From the NCBI GenBank assembly GCA_900555605.1, contig USLW01000039.1, positions 1-10,925 on the forward strand: a stretch of DNA of 10,925 nucleotides, given 5' to 3'. Positions 1-9,025 of this stretch are shown one piece after another. Made by a program: the position numbers and the translations under genes. Each line of letters opens with the position of its first letter. Positions within the stretch are counted from its first letter, which is position 1. Under the pieces are notes generated by a model. That model was given only the letters and a program-made list of their open reading frames with translations, had not been told where the DNA came from and searched no databases. Source of the DNA: an uncultured Clostridium sp. Lineage in GTDB: Bacteria; Bacillota; Clostridia; UBA1212; UBA1255.

Positions 1-1168
1 AGCCGCTCCCGTCACGGACAACGCTGCCGTTTTCATCCCTTTGCGGTCCGTAGTACTTCCCGTCGTGGGCTCTGATCATAACCACCTCGCCCTGGTCGTC
101 CAGATATTCGATGCAGTAGTTCTCACCCAGCCAAAGCATCTTACTGACGTCGAACCGGGCAGAAGTAGCCGATTTCCCCAGCGTCAGTTCAAAATACATT
201 TTAACTTTTTCTTCGGTAACTTTGTTTTGCCGCGCCGCGAAGGTGGCTGCGAGATTGTATTGAATGGTGTCGTAGGAGCGGACAACTTTGTTATGATCAT
301 TTTTATCATTTCCGGGTTTATCAACCGTACCATCAGCACTCAGACTGCCGGTATTGTCAAAAGGGGCCGATCCGTCTACAATACTTTCAATTGTTAACTG
401 CTGCACATAGCCTTTTTCCAGTTTCTTGCTGACAAAAACATAGGGGCAGGGCTGCGTGACATTAAAGGTAAAGCCCTTGTAGTTCTCTGTATCAAGATTT
501 ACCTTCTTCACGGAGTCGGATATTTCACAAAGTTCTGTGCCATCGGTTGCTCTACTGGAAAAAATCCTGAGCTTCCGTTCACCTGCCGTCCCCCACAGTC
601 TTGCTCCCGATTTCAGGTATTCCAACTGGATAGTCGCGTTCTTACCGTCAGTGATTTCCATATTCGTTTGAAGATTATAGGTGCCTGCTGTTTCATTGAG
701 TTCTACCCAGTGGATCATATAGCACTGCATATCGTTGCGTGCTCCAACAGCGGCATCCAAGGCAGCATCTGTCGGGTAATAGGCTTCGCCCGAATTTACC
801 TTGCGGATAAAAGGATAGCAGTTCTCTGTTACGGCCGCGCCTTCTGGCGGGGTGATAACAGCCTTAACATTTGCATTGGTTTCACTCTCGGCATCATAGG
901 CAACCCATGTGCCGCCCTCTCGCAGTTCGCCGGGATAGATGCCCAAGCCGAATAAATCCGAAATTTGACCTGTTATGGGTATTGGCTCAGGCGTAGTGTT
1001 CTCTTGCTTTGTCGTCATTGTAATCGCGGGAAGAATGAGGGCGTAAACGGTGCAGAATATGACGATCACCGCCAGGGAGACAAAAGCCGAGTAATACCAT
1101 TTCCGGTATTTCCGAGATTTAATTTGTTCATTTGCCACTTGAAGCAGCTGATCGTTTTTCATCTTCAT
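1..1168 (-). CDS. N-terminal part of a large secreted/anchored surface protein (pilin or adhesin-like), cut by window edge
   Basis: The minus-strand reading frame is open from the ATG at 1168 through base 2 (389 codons) with no stop, so the gene continues beyond the left edge. An AGGAAGGAGAG ribosome binding site ends about 9 nt before the ATG. Residues 1-23 are polar and basic, residues 24-49 form one hydrophobic segment ending in YALILPAITM, and the rest is polar, Thr/Asp/Gly-rich extracellular-type sequence. That ALILPAIT-type leader is familiar from very large Firmicutes surface proteins with Cna-B/SpaA-like domains. The segment around residues 290-350 (VVRSYDTIQYNLAA, then MYFELTL and FDVSKMLWL) also resembles a domain of such adhesins. 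No Cna-B repeat or LPXTG signal is visible because the C-terminus is missing. It lies 58 nt downstream of a signal peptidase, its probable processing enzyme. The surface role is well supported; pilin versus adhesin is open. Confidence 0.75.
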   Translation of the reverse strand, partial: MKMKNDQLLQVANEQIKSRKYRKWYYSAFVSLAVIVIFCTVYALILPAITMTTKQENTTPEPIPITGQISDLFGLGIYPGELREGGTWVAYDAESETNANVKAVITPPEGAAVTENCYPFIRKVNSGEAYYPTDAALDAAVGARNDMQCYMIHWVELNETAGTYNLQTNMEITDGKNATIQLEYLKSGARLWGTAGERKLRIFSSRATDGTELCEISDSVKKVNLDTENYKGFTFNVTQPCPYVFVSKKLEKGYVQQLTIESIVDGSAPFDNTGSLSADGTVDKPGNDKNDHNKVVRSYDTIQYNLAATFAARQNKVTEEKVKMYFELTLGKSATSARFDVSKMLWLGENYCIEYLDDQGEVVMIRAHDGKYYGPQRDENGSVVRDGSG

Positions 1169-1226: not shown

Positions 1227-1817
1227 TCATTTGACCTTCCCAAATCTATCCAACGGCCAGACCCGAAAAACAATTTTACCCACAATCTGCTCTTCCGCAA
1301 CACAGCCGACTATAGTACTTCGGGAATCTACCGATGTTGCTCTGTGATCTCCCATTACAAAGTATCTTCCGTCGGGAATTTGGTATGGCAATGCCAAATC
1401 ACATTCACCCAACGCTTTCTCCGTCAGATATGGCTCGTCGATTTCTTCGCCGTTTACATATACCGTACCGAATTCATCTATATCGACCCAATCGCCCGGT
1501 CCGGCGATGATCCTTTTCACCAAGATCTTATTGTTGTAGTAAAATGACAAGACGTCGCCGGTATGAAAATCCGCCCCTTTGAGCGATACAACGATATCAC
1601 CTTCATTCAGCGTAGGCAACATAGAACTGCCGTAGATCTGCAATACCGGCAGCCACAGGGTAGCAATCAGAATTGCGATAGCCGCCACGGTAATCAAGGT
1701 ATATACCGTACTGCGCAAGGTAACGTGGTATCGGCGTCTGTATTTCACACGGTTTAATTCCTTCTCCAGCTCCTCAGAGGAAGGCATTTCGGTAAACTGT
1801 TTGCGACGCATATTCAT
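1227..1817 (-). CDS. lepB: Type I signal peptidase (S26 family), membrane-anchored
   Basis: The 196-residue protein has a charged cytoplasmic N-terminus (1-36), one membrane anchor (about 38-60) and an extracytoplasmic catalytic domain. The S26 motifs are intact: YGSSMLPTL with nucleophile Ser65, LVKRIIAGPGDWV with general base Lys101, and MGDHRATSVDSR at 155-166. It should cleave signal peptides of exported proteins on the outer face of the membrane. The start codon overlaps the stop of the upstream coiled-coil gene in an ATGA (1814-1817), suggesting translational coupling. The large surface protein begins 58 nt downstream. Signal peptidases placed inside Gram-positive pilus clusters are commonly dedicated to the local pilins (SipA-like), and context suggests that here; this is inference. 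The symbol is the generic family name, and the housekeeping role is less likely. Confidence 0.92.
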   Translation of the reverse strand: MNMRRKQFTEMPSSEELEKELNRVKYRRRYHVTLRSTVYTLITVAAIAILIATLWLPVLQIYGSSMLPTLNEGDIVVSLKGADFHTGDVLSFYYNNKILVKRIIAGPGDWVDIDEFGTVYVNGEEIDEPYLTEKALGECDLALPYQIPDGRYFVMGDHRATSVDSRSTIVGCVAEEQIVGKIVFRVWPLDRFGKVK

Positions 1818-2296
1818 TCCTCCCCAGAGGAATTCGAAAGCCCTGAGTGAAGCCGTTGCAATTCATCCATTTTTTGGGACACCTCATTCAAGCATAGGGC
1901 AGCTTGCTGCTTTGCCTGGCTTAACCTTTCTTCGCACCGTTTCCGCGTCGCCGCTTCCATCCCCTGGCATTTTCTTATCATGTCGGTTTCCATACGCTTG
2001 CATTTTTCTTCCGCTTCCGCTTGCATCTTTGCACAGATACTTTCCTGCCGTTCGCTCAATGCCTGAATGTTCCCAATATATTGTGCAGCTGCATTCTGCG
2101 CCGCGTCGAAAACGCCGTTCAGCTGCAGGCACGCTTCTGCAAGAGAGCCCGCATTATCAATCGTAATGATGCGGGAGGATAGTTTCTCCTCCAATGCCGC
2201 GATTTCTGTTTGCAGCCGCTCGTTTTCCCTGGTTCTATTCAGCAGCATCGCGAGCAAATCTGTGCGGCTTAATTTTTTCAGTTCTTTTTCTGTCAT
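1814..2296 (-). CDS. Small coiled-coil protein of unknown function in a surface-protein operon
   Basis: The 160-residue protein has no signal peptide or membrane segment. Residues 1-45 are charged and helical (TEKELKKLSRTDLLAMLL, then a Leu/Glu heptad-like stretch). Residues about 46-75 contain a more compact segment (NAGSLAEACLQLNGVF), and residues 80-155 are rich in Glu, Lys, Arg and Gln with periodic Leu, Met and Cys, consistent with a long coiled coil. It has four Cys in the C-terminal half. The start follows a GGAGGGC ribosome binding site 6-7 nt upstream. It overlaps the signal peptidase gene by 4 nt. From memory, proteins of this type recur beside signal peptidase and surface-protein genes in gut Clostridia, sometimes under a 'DNA repair protein' label that nothing here supports. 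A scaffold or assembly role at the membrane is only a guess. Confidence 0.75.
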   Translation of the reverse strand: MTEKELKKLSRTDLLAMLLNRTRENERLQTEIAALEEKLSSRIITIDNAGSLAEACLQLNGVFDAAQNAAAQYIGNIQALSERQESICAKMQAEAEEKCKRMETDMIRKCQGMEAATRKRCEERLSQAKQQAALCLNEVSQKMDELQRLHSGLSNSSGEE

Positions 2297-2369
2297 GCAT
2301 TTGCCCTCCTGCTCTACGCGCTGTCTCTCTTTCTGACTTTCCTTTCATCAGAGGGAAGGACATGCCGTT

Positions 2370-2850
2370 TCATAACAGCCGCCATATCGTTTCATAAATA
2401 TCCTTGTTCTTTTTCATTTCACCCCGAATAATCTTCTTTGCAAACACACCGGAAAAATCCAATATATACAGCCAAAAATATTTGCTGCTGATTGCATCGC
2501 CCTCAGAGTGTACGCCGAAGTCCTCCGTCAGTTTTTTTACGCACTTCGGAATCCGTTTCTCGAGATTTTCCTGCATAGCCGTAAATGACTTTAATTCCCG
2601 ATACTCATAGTAGTACAGCGTTTTGTAATCGTTCTTCACCATAAAATAGAAGCATTTCAGCCAGAGCTTATGCATACATCCGCAGAATTCCTCTGGCGAT
2701 TTGGTCTCTTGAAAGTTTTCTTTCTCAAGCATCTCATAGATCAGTCCGTCTACATGAAAATAACATTGCAAAAGCAGGCAGTCCAACATCAGCGACGACT
2801 CTCATTGTAGTGTCCAATAAAATATCCTTCCGTTTTTTCTCCTCCTGCAA
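2370..2850 (-). pseudogene. TetR-family regulator, broken: HTH core lost or frameshifted
   Basis: The main open frame (2789-2370, 139 residues) looks like the end of a TetR DNA-binding domain (CYFHVDGLIYEMLEKENF, compare the usual YxHFxxKdxLiyeml) followed by an all-helical ligand-binding domain with paired aromatic helices (KCFYFMVKNDYKTLYYYEYR). An in-frame stop lies five codons before its first ATG. A second frame, from a TTG at 2850 to a stop at 2734, reads EEKKRKDILLDTTMRVVADV then GLPAFAM. This resembles TetR helix 1 and its following turn. The two frames overlap, and the roughly 20 residues expected for helices 2-3 are missing. The best reading is an out-of-frame internal deletion removing the HTH. 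An AAGGAAG sits about 11 nt before the TTG. It would be the first gene read if the upstream promoter segment inverts. The 139-residue part could still be translated. Confidence 0.62.
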
Positions 2851-2877
2851 TACTTATCCAACTTCCTTTTTTCACAT

Positions 2878-2894
2878 AATTATGGTTATGTTGT
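2878..2894 (+). repeat. Left 17-bp inverted repeat of the invertible segment
   Basis: The sequence AATTATGGTTATGTTGT is the exact reverse complement of 3142-3158. It lies 27 bp upstream of the TTG that begins the TetR-like remnant, so an inverted promoter would read directly into the operon. Confidence 0.88.
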
Positions 2895-2954
2895 AATTGG
2901 GCTTAGAAATTGATATTCAAATAAACTATATACTGATATATGTGCATAGAAAAT

Positions 2955-2997
2955 AAGCTCCCTCACTTTTTTGAAAAATGAGGAAAGGAGCTTTTTT
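2955..2997 (+). terminator. Strong intrinsic terminator inside the invertible segment
   Basis: AAGCTCC (2955-2961) pairs with GGAGCTT (2987-2993), CTCA (2962-2965) pairs with TGAG (2979-2982), and a T run pairs with an A run in the upper stem. A T tract (2992-2997) follows on the plus strand. On the minus strand the hairpin is followed by TTATTTT, so it may work in both directions. In the present orientation it lies between the operon and anything to the right, and would stop leftward read-through from the recombinase gene. After inversion it would sit on the recombinase side. Confidence 0.8.
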
Positions 2998-3059
2998 GTG
3001 CTACCTTGAATAAGTAAACAATTTTTGAACGAAACAATGTGAATTTCGAGAATACTGCC

Positions 3060-3089
3060 TTGACATTTTCTCCATTATTGATATATAAT
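3060..3089 (+). promoter_or_regulatory. Consensus sigma-70/sigma-A promoter pointing right (away from the surface operon)
   Basis: The -35 box TTGACA is at 3060-3065 and the -10 box TATAAT at 3084-3089, with an 18-bp spacer. Both hexamers are perfect. The -10 lies in a 20-bp perfect AT palindrome (3081-3100). In this orientation transcripts would leave the segment at 3158 and run antisense into the 3' end of the recombinase gene. After inversion they would run into the TetR-like, coiled-coil, signal peptidase and surface-protein genes. Confidence 0.8.
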
Positions 3090-3141
3090 ATATTATATAT
3101 ATATTCTGTGAGTTTGCACAGCCCATAGTCAGACAAACAGA

Positions 3142-3158
3142 ACAACATAACCATAATT
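3142..3158 (-). repeat. Right 17-bp inverted repeat of the invertible segment
   Basis: The sequence ACAACATAACCATAATT is the exact reverse complement of 2878-2894. It lies 43 bp from the stop codon of the tyrosine recombinase gene, a spacing typical of a recombinase beside its own target site. Confidence 0.88.
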
Positions 3159-3201
3159 TTGTTTCCGATACTATGTGTATCGTTTTTTTGTACGTTTATA
3201 T

Positions 3202-4044
3202 TTATGATATAAGCCGCATGCCGTCGATTTTACGGCGATGTTCTTCGCCCGTAGTCACGATATAGATGCGTGTGGTGTTAATGCTGCTGTGCCCTAAAAT
3301 ATCCGCCAGTTTTACAATATCTTTTTCGATTCCGTAAAAGGTTCGAGCAAACAAGTGCCTGAGATTGTGCGGAAAAACCTTTCCAGGAGATACGCCTGCT
3401 CTTTCGCAGAGTGCTTTCATCTCTTTCCAAATATTGCACCGATTTATCGGCTTGCCGGTTCTCGTAATAAAGACCGCGCTGGATATTATTTTTTGTTCCC
3501 GGATATATCGAATCAGCTTCTTTTGCAGACGGTTCGGTATAAAGATTGTTCGTGTTTTCCCTTTGCAGTTTACAGTTGCCTCGCCACGCCTAACAGCTTC
3601 AGCGGTGATATATTGCAGTTCGCTTACTCGGATGCCGGTCGCACAAATGGTTTCGATCAGTAAACTTAGCCGTTCGCTGCCTTTTTCTTTTGCAGCATGG
3701 ATCAAACGAAAATATTCCTCGCGAGACAGTTCCTTTTCTTCCGAACAATAGATTTTTCGTTGTACCTTGAATTGCTTGACACAGCAGCTTTCTAAGCTGA
3801 TGAATCGCAGAAAAGAATTCATAGATGCAATCATAGAATTGGCGCTTGCGGCAGCATAGTCCTCTTGAAGTTTTGATTTGTATTCCATCGTAAGCGATTT
3901 ATCAATTTTTCTACCATCAGCATATTCCAAAAAATGCCGGACATCTCTCAGATATTTCTCAATCGTGGCTTTGCTTTTTTCGTCTTCCCGTAAATGCTTT
4001 TCAAAGGCGTCCAGCTTTTTTTGCGTTATCTCTTTATTTTTCAT
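3202..4044 (-). CDS. Tyrosine site-specific recombinase, probable invertase for the adjacent segment
   Basis: The 280-residue protein has an N-terminal SAM-like core-binding domain (about 5-90) and a C-terminal catalytic domain (about 105-275). The catalytic set is complete: Arg139 in ATGIRVSEL, Lys161 in NCKGKTRTIF, His226 and Arg229 in PHNLRHLFA, His252 in LGHSSINTTRIY and nucleophile Tyr261. The length suits a stand-alone XerC/D-like invertase rather than a large phage integrase with an arm-binding domain. The ATG at 4044 follows a GGAGGAGC ribosome binding site. No phage genes or att site are near. The stop codon is 43 bp from the right inverted repeat, so the natural assignment is inversion of 2878-3158. 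XerC/D-type dimer resolution is unlikely given this context. No convincing promoter was found in the 100 bp upstream. A promoter in the invertible segment currently points antisense into this gene. Confidence 0.93.
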   Translation of the reverse strand: MKNKEITQKKLDAFEKHLREDEKSKATIEKYLRDVRHFLEYADGRKIDKSLTMEYKSKLQEDYAAASANSMIASMNSFLRFISLESCCVKQFKVQRKIYCSEEKELSREEYFRLIHAAKEKGSERLSLLIETICATGIRVSELQYITAEAVRRGEATVNCKGKTRTIFIPNRLQKKLIRYIREQKIISSAVFITRTGKPINRCNIWKEMKALCERAGVSPGKVFPHNLRHLFARTFYGIEKDIVKLADILGHSSINTTRIYIVTTGEEHRRKIDGMRLIS

Positions 4045-4150
4045 AAAATGCTCCTCCGAATTTTCTTTTAATTTTTAATAATATCCAGTCTATTTTACAT
4101 TATTTTTTTGACATTGGAGAAAACAGAAAAGAAAACCTATGTCAATATAT

Positions 4151-4598
4151 TGGACAAAAAAGTTGAAAGATTATGCTGATTTTTTGAGTTCTTCATCCGC
4201 CTTTTGCTGAGGAGTGATATAACCTTGTGCCGGATAAAAGCCACAATCTCGGCGATTGTTCTTTTGCGAATATGGCGGTCGCTTTTTTATATTTCATTCT
4301 CAATCTTAGGGCGCTGGTTTTCCTTCTGGAGGGCCTTATGCTCCTTGAGGGTAACAGTTTCCTCCCTCTGATACCCTGATCGGGAAGCGCTGTTTTATCC
4401 AGCTGCTGCGCGTGCTCCGATTTACGCCATATTCGCGGCGTCCCAGTTGGGAATACGAGGTTCCTCTGGCATGATACAGGTCCACGATCCGCTGTTTGAA
4501 TTCCGTCCGGAGTGTAGGATTTCTGCCTCTTCGCCATGTTGAACAGCGCCTTTGCTCTTTCATTTGATCATATGCGTTGTTCAACTTTTTCGTGAACA
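4151..4598 (-). mobile_element. Decayed, internally deleted IS3-family insertion sequence remnant
   Basis: The likely ends share an inverted 11-mer: AAAAAGTTGAA at 4157-4167 and TTCAACTTTTT at 4580-4590. They extend outward to TGGACA at 4151 and GTGAACA ending at 4598, which gives weakly matched TG...CA termini as in IS3-type elements. The interior is a broken minus-strand transposase. At about 450 bp it is much shorter than a 1.2-1.5 kb IS3 element, so most of orfB is missing. The right end stops just before the PadR promoter and the left end is about 100 bp upstream of the recombinase start. The exact ends are an inference, and no target-site duplication was identified. Confidence 0.6.
4171..4537 (-). 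pseudogene. IS3-family transposase OrfA remnant fused to the tail of OrfB, frameshifted
   Basis: The original ATG is at 4537 (MAKRQKSYTP). The frame then shifts, and the HTH continues as EFKQRIVDLYHARGTSYSQL and REYGVNRSTRSSWIKQ, which is typical IS3/IS150-type OrfA. A second shift gives RMKYKKATAIFAKEQ, the end of the OrfA leucine-zipper region. Close behind, another frame reads GYITPQQKADEELKKSA then a stop (4171-4173). This resembles the C-terminal end of an IS3 OrfB (LGYxTPxxx). The DDE catalytic core between them is absent. The gene cannot make a working transposase. Identification of the OrfA part is firm; the OrfB tail is tentative. Confidence 0.75.
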
Positions 4599-4612
4599 TC
4601 GCCACACCTCAC

Positions 4613-4640
4613 TTGACTTTTGCGCGGCTATTTGTATAAT
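4613..4640 (+). promoter_or_regulatory. Promoter of the PadR-hydrolase operon
   Basis: TTGACT at 4613-4618 and a perfect TATAAT at 4635-4640 are separated by 16 bp. It lies just outside the right end of the IS remnant and 37 nt before the PadR start codon, so transcription would begin around 4647 within or beside the palindrome at 4640-4653. Confidence 0.75.
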
Positions 4641-4653
4641 AGTAATGTTACTA
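4640..4653. promoter_or_regulatory. Putative operator palindrome at the PadR transcription start
   Basis: TAGTAA-TG-TTACTA is a perfect 6-bp inverted repeat with a 2-bp centre that begins at the last base of the -10 box. A protein bound here would block the promoter. PadR regulators commonly repress their own operons, so autoregulation is plausible but unproven. Confidence 0.5.
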
Positions 4654-4676
4654 ATAGCAATAAAGAGGAGACAACA

Positions 4677-5216
4677 ATGGACAACATCATTCTTGGGCTT
4701 TTGCTCTTGCGCAACAGAACGATATACCAATTGAGAGAGAGAATTGATAAGGGATTAAACTTAATGTACAGCAGTAGTATGGGAAGTATACAGGCAGCTA
4801 TCAAAAAGCTGTTGCACTGCGGATATGTCGACTATGGAGAAACTGTTGAAAATGGAAAATACAAGAAAGTCTACCGTATAACAGAAAGTGGAAAACGATA
4901 TTTTCTTGAGTGGGTAAACACGCCGATTGAGCAGCAGGGCGTCAGATGCCCGGGGTTGGTAAAGATTTATTTTATGGGCTTCTCAGATAAGGAAAATCGA
5001 GAAGCAAACATACAAAACTATTTGTCCTTTCTAAAGGAACAGTATTGTGCGTTAGAAATGATATGTGAGGAAGCAAAGAATATTGCGGTTTCTGAAAGCA
5101 ATAAAGAAATTTTTAATTACCAGCTTGTATCAGCTTTTTACGGAAAAGACTTTTATAAATTCAATATCGATTGGTTTGAAAATCTATTAAGTAAAATGAG
5201 GAACGGTGAAATATGA
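4677..5216 (+). CDS. PadR-family transcriptional regulator
   Basis: The 179-residue protein has an N-terminal winged helix (about 1-75): MDNIILGLLLLRNRTIYQLR, a recognition region SMGSIQAAIKKLLHCGYV, and a wing VENGKYKKVYRITESGKRYF. These are typical PadR features. Residues 90-175 are helical and would form the dimerisation arm of the AphA/PadR type. I chose the ATG at 4677 because an AGAGGAG ribosome binding site lies about 8 nt upstream; an earlier in-frame ATG at 4620 lies in the promoter. Its stop overlaps the start of the hydrolase (ATGA, 5213-5216), so the two are cotranscribed and probably coupled. It likely represses this operon and responds to a small aromatic, lipid-like or toxic compound; the ligand cannot be inferred. 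Confidence 0.85.
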   Translation: MDNIILGLLLLRNRTIYQLRERIDKGLNLMYSSSMGSIQAAIKKLLHCGYVDYGETVENGKYKKVYRITESGKRYFLEWVNTPIEQQGVRCPGLVKIYFMGFSDKENREANIQNYLSFLKEQYCALEMICEEAKNIAVSESNKEIFNYQLVSAFYGKDFYKFNIDWFENLLSKMRNGEI

Positions 5217-8944: not shown

Positions 8945-8962
8945 TCCGTAATCGGTTACGGA
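8945..8962 (-). promoter_or_regulatory. LacI-type operator, promoter-distal site
   Basis: TCCGTAATCGGTTACGGA is an 18-bp near-perfect palindrome with the AANCGNTT core of LacI/GalR operators. It is the exact reverse complement of the site at 9008-9025. It lies in the leader of the transporter gene, 43 nt before the start codon. Confidence 0.8.
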
Positions 8963-9007: not shown

Positions 9008-9025
9008 TCCGTAACCGATTACGGA
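9008..9025 (+). promoter_or_regulatory. LacI-type operator overlapping the transporter transcription start
   Basis: TCCGTAACCGATTACGGA lies 4 bp downstream of the transporter -10 box, over the expected start of transcription. One further base pair of symmetry on each side (CG...CG) extends it to 22 bp. Its centre is 63 bp from that of the other operator, six turns of B-DNA, which would put both sites on the same face. Confidence 0.82.

Follow-up and report, generated by a model that had tools for sequence, protein, structure and literature searches.

A probable promoter inverton with an adjacent tyrosine recombinase faces a signal-peptidase/surface-protein operon in an uncultured Clostridium sp.

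The 10,925-nucleotide stretch of DNA from an uncultured Clostridium sp. that was analysed here, referred to as the window, very probably carries a self-contained promoter inverton, in which a tyrosine recombinase encoded next to a short segment would invert that segment and the neighbouring operon would be OFF as drawn. An invertible-promoter switch had been proposed in a first-pass annotation of the sequence, and this reading is now supported, on a comparative basis, by site pairs conserved in relatives and by flipped copies of the segment among them. In its design, the switch is that of known promoter invertons. The positions of its parts are listed in Table 1.

Table 1. Features of the predicted switch, its recombinase gene and the operon that it faces, in window coordinates.
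Feature	Position	Strand	Basis and remarks
Large surface protein, start	2..1168	-	389 aa in the window, continues past its edge
Signal peptidase I (S26), 196 aa	1227..1817	-	TIGR02227
160-aa protein	1814..2296	-	Similar genes in loci L001 and L032
TetR-family regulator remnant, first operon gene	2370..2853	-	ORF 2370-2789 plus N-terminal remnant in another frame, about 2764-2853
Left arm, operon side	2874..2894	+	Repeat search, relatives, shuffles
Left predicted recombinase site	2874-2891		ACATAA-TTATGG-TTATGT; 6-bp crossover spacer 2880-2885
Predicted invertible segment	2895..3141	none	247 bp between the exact arms; flipped relative to L001
Terminator-like hairpin inside the segment	2958..2986	-	Between recombinase-side transcription and the operon as drawn
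Predicted promoter, TTGACA-18-TATAAT	3060..3089	+	Points right, away from the operon (predicted OFF)
Right arm, recombinase side	3142..3162	-	Repeat search, relatives, shuffles
Right predicted recombinase site	3145-3162		Spacer 3151-3156, identical to the left spacer when inverted
Terminator-like hairpin and T-run just outside the right arm	3166..3182	+	z -2.6; 6/200 shuffles
Tyrosine recombinase, XerC/D-like, presumed invertase	3202..4044	-	280 aa, PF00589, catalytic residues conserved

The two exact 17-bp inverted repeats around 247 bp that the first-pass annotation had reported were found where it had placed them (2878-2894 and 3142-3158), and they form the core of arms of 21 nt that are complementary at 20/21 positions (95%). 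When the window was shuffled 200 times with its dinucleotide composition preserved, exact inverted repeats with arms about 30-1500 nt apart never reached 17 nt (0/200), the longest being 16 nt. Comparison with relatives, described below, indicates that the unit at each end of the segment is an 18-bp site (6+6+6) and goes beyond a mere 17-bp repeat. The segment is short, intergenic and flanked by inverted repeats, as expected of a promoter inverton, and a search against Rfam gave no match at gathering thresholds. The window holds one longer exact inverted pair, of 18 nt at 8945/9008 near a LacI-type gene; the two copies (8945-8962 and 9008-9025) lie between the EamA and the LacI-family gene, are nearly palindromic and exactly inverted with respect to one another, and have the look of operators for the adjacent LacI-type regulator.

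The recombinase gene, which the earlier reading had described as complete and 43 bp away, is intact and ends 43 nt from the end of the exact arm at 3158. Its product matches PF00589 with an E value of 7e-25, and in an alignment of 35 recombinases the residues R139, K163, H226, R229 and H252 were invariant and Y261 was at least 90% conserved; these positions were assigned by eye to R...K...HxxR...H...Y, which we take to be the catalytic motif of tyrosine recombinases. The scores lay below the NCBIfam equivalog cut-offs for the housekeeping proteins XerD (127 against 329.6 bits), XerC (111 against 335) and XerA (143 against 220). The alignment, composed of the window sequence and 34 sequences picked from at least 120 listed relatives, was used for a scan with one genome per species, which yielded 358 stretches encoding a relative of the recombinase. 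The best 80, with 59-74% identity to the window recombinase, were retained, and locus counts given here refer to these best 80 of 358, plus the window where stated. Most of their hosts are MAGs with labels such as Clostridia or Oscillospiraceae, and animal gut samples are the source of many; one locus, L028, belongs to a named strain, Massiliimalia timonensis. Among 300 sampled genomes of the family to which locus L001 belongs, 33 encode the recombinase at an E value of 1e-90 or better, none with more than 74% identity.

In most of the best 80 of 358 loci, an inverted-repeat pair begins 25-65 nt past the matched recombinase stretch, and the loci share an 18-bp site, ACATAA-N6-TTATGT. This site was searched for by its half-sites only, ignoring the spacer and allowing at most one half-site mismatch, in those loci whose sequence extends 600 nt or more past the recombinase; two sites were present in 61 of 65 (window included, from the best 80 of 358). 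The 6-bp spacer was identical at 6/6 positions, in inverted orientation, between the two arms in 60 of these 61 loci, the exception being L055 with a tandem direct copy and a third, inverted one. Between loci, spacers agreed in only 36 of 3,660 comparisons (1.0%), and none of the 49 distinct spacers was self-complementary. Strand exchange by tyrosine recombinases requires the two spacers to match, and where the spacer is asymmetric, inverted sites yield inversion as their fixed product. Within the 600 nt that precede the recombinase, none of 77 loci had a site of this type, and five such sites occurred in 805,540 bp of other flanking sequence.

Four loci failed the strict rule: in L014 and L034 the half-sites read ACAGAA/TTCTGT, the pair of L039 lies 1.07 kb away, and L049 has none. 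Conservation of the repeats beside related recombinases, which the first-pass annotation had named as a test, therefore extends to 64 of the 65 loci with enough sequence (61 strict plus L014, L034 and L039). Another search recovered a pair in 68 of 81 loci; in 12 of the 13 others the contig ends within 400 nt of the gene, and L049 has 8 kb and still no pair. At 4849-6055 of L049, the recombinase query matched four stretches, and a 48-nt piece recurs in an inverted repeat (5263-5310/6008-6055), so that this locus may represent a broken copy or an assembly chimera.

Both orientations of the segment exist in nature among the relatives, a comparison that the earlier reading had proposed as a check. 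Most directly, L036 and L022, from different MAGs, have collinear flanks (94.3% identity over 4004 nt and 99.5% over 217 nt) around a 295-nt segment, arms included, that is 98.3% identical on the opposite strand. For the window, the evidence comes from alignment with L001, which has the same operon and a recombinase 73% identical: the segments score 17 when one is flipped and -24.5 on the same strand, against a mean of -21 and a maximum of -1 in 500 shuffles, and the L001 promoter faces the operon whereas that of the window faces the recombinase. Over the 68 loci with a pair (window included), the promoter was called as pointing toward the recombinase in 41 and away from it in 20, with 7 undecided, such calls being consensus matches only. 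Promoter direction and homology-defined direction agreed in 107 of 122 segment pairs with at least 90 nt aligned and both directions called, pairs that are not independent; all but one of the 15 disagreements involve L041, whose promoter call is probably wrong. Of 80 loci, 13 lie on a contig that breaks off no more than 400 nt past the recombinase match (L075 within the gene itself), compared with 3 whose contig breaks off that close before it (p 0.011). Such an excess would be expected if mixed orientations in the sampled populations break assemblies, and it could also stem from repeated recombinase genes; in genome G009, several contigs end inside the recombinase gene.

The perfect-hexamer promoter that had been noted in the segment was recovered, with TTGACA at 3060-3065 and TATAAT at 3084-3089, an 18-nt spacer and 12/12 consensus matches. 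Since the same scan returned 9 sites that resemble promoters where shuffles gave 5.5 (sd 2.6), the hexamers alone are weak proof, and the argument from promoter direction rests on the relatives. Judged by sequence only, this promoter faces the gene set or away from it according to the orientation of the segment. The terminator reported in the segment was likewise found, as a hairpin stable on the minus strand (z -4.5; equally stable in 0/200 shuffles) and weak when read on the plus strand (z -1.3; 12/200). A weak promoter-like match within the segment (9/12, 3112-3085) points toward the operon as drawn and has this hairpin in its path.

We propose that the adjacent recombinase, which presumably catalyses the flip, would bind both ACATAA-N6-TTATGT sites and exchange strands across the 6-bp spacer, whereby the segment between the sites would invert and the outer half-sites would stay put. 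As drawn, the promoter, if active as its sequence suggests, would fire rightward toward the 3' end of the recombinase gene and into the hairpin just outside the right arm, which would end this transcript ahead of that gene. The hairpin inside the segment would stop leftward read-through, leaving the operon of the TetR remnant, signal peptidase and surface protein OFF, which is most likely the state of the orientation seen in the window. Inversion would turn the promoter toward the operon and leave the terminator behind the promoter, so that the operon would be ON. The output of the operon is accordingly predicted, within this model, to be phase-variable, and the window copy is presumably still able to flip.

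On the other side of the segment, the surface-protein operon of the earlier reading was confirmed as four minus-strand ORFs to its left. Matches to all four genes were found in L001 only (best 80 of 358 loci), whose operon comprises an intact TetR-family gene (TetR_N, E 5e-12), a relative of the 160-aa protein, a signal peptidase with 70% identity and a protein of 1644 aa whose end is LPXTG-like. Residues 13-51 of the window surface protein match the N-terminal membrane segment of this LPXTG-type protein, and the 160-aa protein gave no Pfam or NCBIfam match at an E value of 0.001. Among three genomes of the genus of L001, the signal peptidase was detected at an E value of 1e-40 in the genome of L001 itself only. 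The six genes to the right of the window recombinase (PadR, hydrolase, acyltransferase, EamA, LacI and dehydrogenase) had no match at an E value of 1e-15 in the relative loci compared; therefore, the surroundings of switch and operon differ between the window and L001. Short ORFs to the right of the recombinase, at 4193-4605, resemble by eye fragments of an IS3-type transposase and may mark the arrival of the module.

The window copy could be decaying, given an off-consensus right outer half-site and a broken first operon gene, and the switch might then be locked or a relic in this organism, a former inverton that no longer flips or matters; we consider this unlikely. The right outer half-site reads ACAAAA, one mismatch from the consensus ACATAA. 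In the TetR gene of the window, most of the helix-turn-helix for DNA binding is gone and the reading frame changes, so the regulator is broken here, while its homologues P0122 and P0123 (80% and 79% identical) are longer proteins that keep TetR_N; an isolated error is an unlikely cause, because the protein cluster represented by the 139-aa remnant covers 6 member sequences and 27 contigs. A degenerate outer half-site is, however, not rare, since over 66 pairs there were 12 outer and 1 inner half-site mismatches, and ACAAAA itself occurs in one arm of L003 and of L058 and in both arms of L060. In addition, the recombinase is full-length with its catalytic residues conserved, and the two spacers match perfectly, which speaks against a relic.

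Control might also be exerted by a flipped terminator instead of a flipped promoter, as in the cwpV switch of Clostridioides difficile, a design, described in the accessible text of PMC2784873, whose imperfect 21-bp repeats are separated by 195 bp and which the stable hairpin in the segment would suit. This is improbable for the window: the best promoter of the region (12/12) sits inside the segment, promoter direction tracks the homology-defined orientation in the segment pairs counted above, and outside the segment, over the scanned positions 2300-4700, the only promoter-like matches reading toward the operon are two of 9/12 at 4596-4471, upstream of the recombinase gene. That the protein is an ordinary mobile-element integrase, with the repeats as attachment sites or static operators and no inversion pair, is scarcely credible, for although it also matches the phage integrase profile phrog_1 (E 1e-31), six recombinase loci with 55-66% identity appeared in a scan of viral contigs and the six right-hand genes lack matches as stated, the pair with matched spacers is conserved, natural flips exist, and the sites are inverted and therefore point to inversion rather than excision.

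The exact site pattern occurred 1-11 times per genome in 15 genomes, against 0-2 times for a reversed control pattern. More than one recombinase of the window's family was present in 6 of the 15, usually with different spacers. Two couples share a spacer, C4/C5 of G009 (both contigs end inside the recombinase) and C41/C51 of G013; private spacers are therefore a tendency and no rule, and plain drift could be an alternative source of them. Five site pairs in G009 and G018 resembled orphans; three of these were set aside, as they lie at contig ends with the recombinase cut off or, by arm and flank match, starting another contig. The pairs on L116 and L118 (G018) have no match to the window recombinase within about 4 kb. 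They lie at 3950-4134 and 4006-4171, respectively, with 148-167 bp between the arms, and immediately precede genes whose products look secreted and have similar N-termini; these pairs are perhaps flipped in trans.

An extra direct site was found in 6 of 81 loci (best 80 of 358 plus the window): in the switches of L018 (8864-9185), L019 (8879-9224) and L055 (8880-9288), after the recombinase in L025 and L031, and in the tail of L002. In L018 and L019, the extra site encloses, on the cargo side, a terminator-like hairpin cassette with a T-run, and L025 and L031 carry, by eye, a reverse-oriented relative of this cassette on the recombinase side. This arrangement suggests alternative inversions that would move a terminator. 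A regular hairpin was counted between recombinase and site in 28 of 68 loci and inside the segment in 26 of 68, a count that misses the interrupted hairpin of the window and was set aside as too crude. We tentatively consider it possible, short of an even chance, that these loci form an extensive and so far undescribed family of clostridial switches, portable as modules, with constant half-sites and a private 6-bp crossover barcode that would keep switches of the same genome from cross-recombining, some members having a third site that would move a terminator cassette and give more than two states.

The genes behind the switches are varied. Of the 67 related loci that have a pair, 56 yielded a first downstream gene (within 400 nt, fewer than 1300 aa), and Pfam matches among these 56 were to Band 7/SPFH (9), zinc ribbon (6), TetR_N (5), camelysin (3), dockerin (3) and signal peptidase (2), others being fewer. 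In L055, from 9334 onward, a switch stands ahead of genes that by eye seem to encode an AMP ligase, a carrier protein and an acyltransferase, resembling a dlt-type operon for cell-wall modification.

Several described systems resemble the window. A survey of a defined gut community (PMC11892184, Microbiome 2025) linked its inverton group 139 to the tyrosine-type invertase group 35; in the text available, this group comprises 33 invertons, 32 of them in Clostridia and almost all with a tyrosine recombinase nearby, and orientation shifts were measured across culture passages and on mucin carriers. Its two printed examples, one with arms of 26 bp separated by 205 bp and the other with arms of 14 bp separated by 227 bp, are close to the window in arm and spacing sizes, whereas co-variation of spacers and three-site forms go unmentioned in main-text sections 8 and 10. 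As far as these sections tell, the switch family of the window is probably already catalogued there as group 139/35, and our guess is that the repeat motif of that group is ACATAA-N6-TTATGT. The fim switch of Escherichia coli (fimS, FimB/FimE) is, in the accessible parts of PMC2784873 and PMC9993118, likewise an invertible promoter, about 300 bp in length, which neighbours genes for tyrosine recombinases and drives a surface structure; the window, likened to it by layout with the repeats left aside, differs in its single recombinase, its host group and cargo, and the terminator-like hairpin in the segment. The RecV switches of C. difficile (cwpV and others), likened by description and again leaving the repeats aside, share with the window an XerC/D-type tyrosine recombinase, short inverted repeats and a segment of about 200 bp upstream of a surface-protein gene; in cwpV, unlike in the window, recV lies elsewhere and the promoter is outside the inverted region (accessible parts of PMC2784873 and PMC5903667). 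A literature search on design and motif returned, among the matches listed, no description of ACATAA-N6-TTATGT with co-varying spacers, which is weak evidence of absence as most subscription papers lay outside the search; a search for the repeat letters gave only unrelated matches among those listed, and four design terms combined gave no match.

Our findings add a phase switch, well supported by comparison, that would control an operon of signal peptidase and surface protein in a relative of gut Clostridia about which little is known. Across species, the same type of switch stands before very different first genes, including SPFH/Band 7, zinc-ribbon, TetR, camelysin-like and dockerin genes. 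With the half-sites and spacer outlined here for a widespread recombinase family, genomes and metagenomes can readily be searched for switches of this kind, and ACATAA-N6-TTATGT sites with interchangeable spacers are candidate tools.
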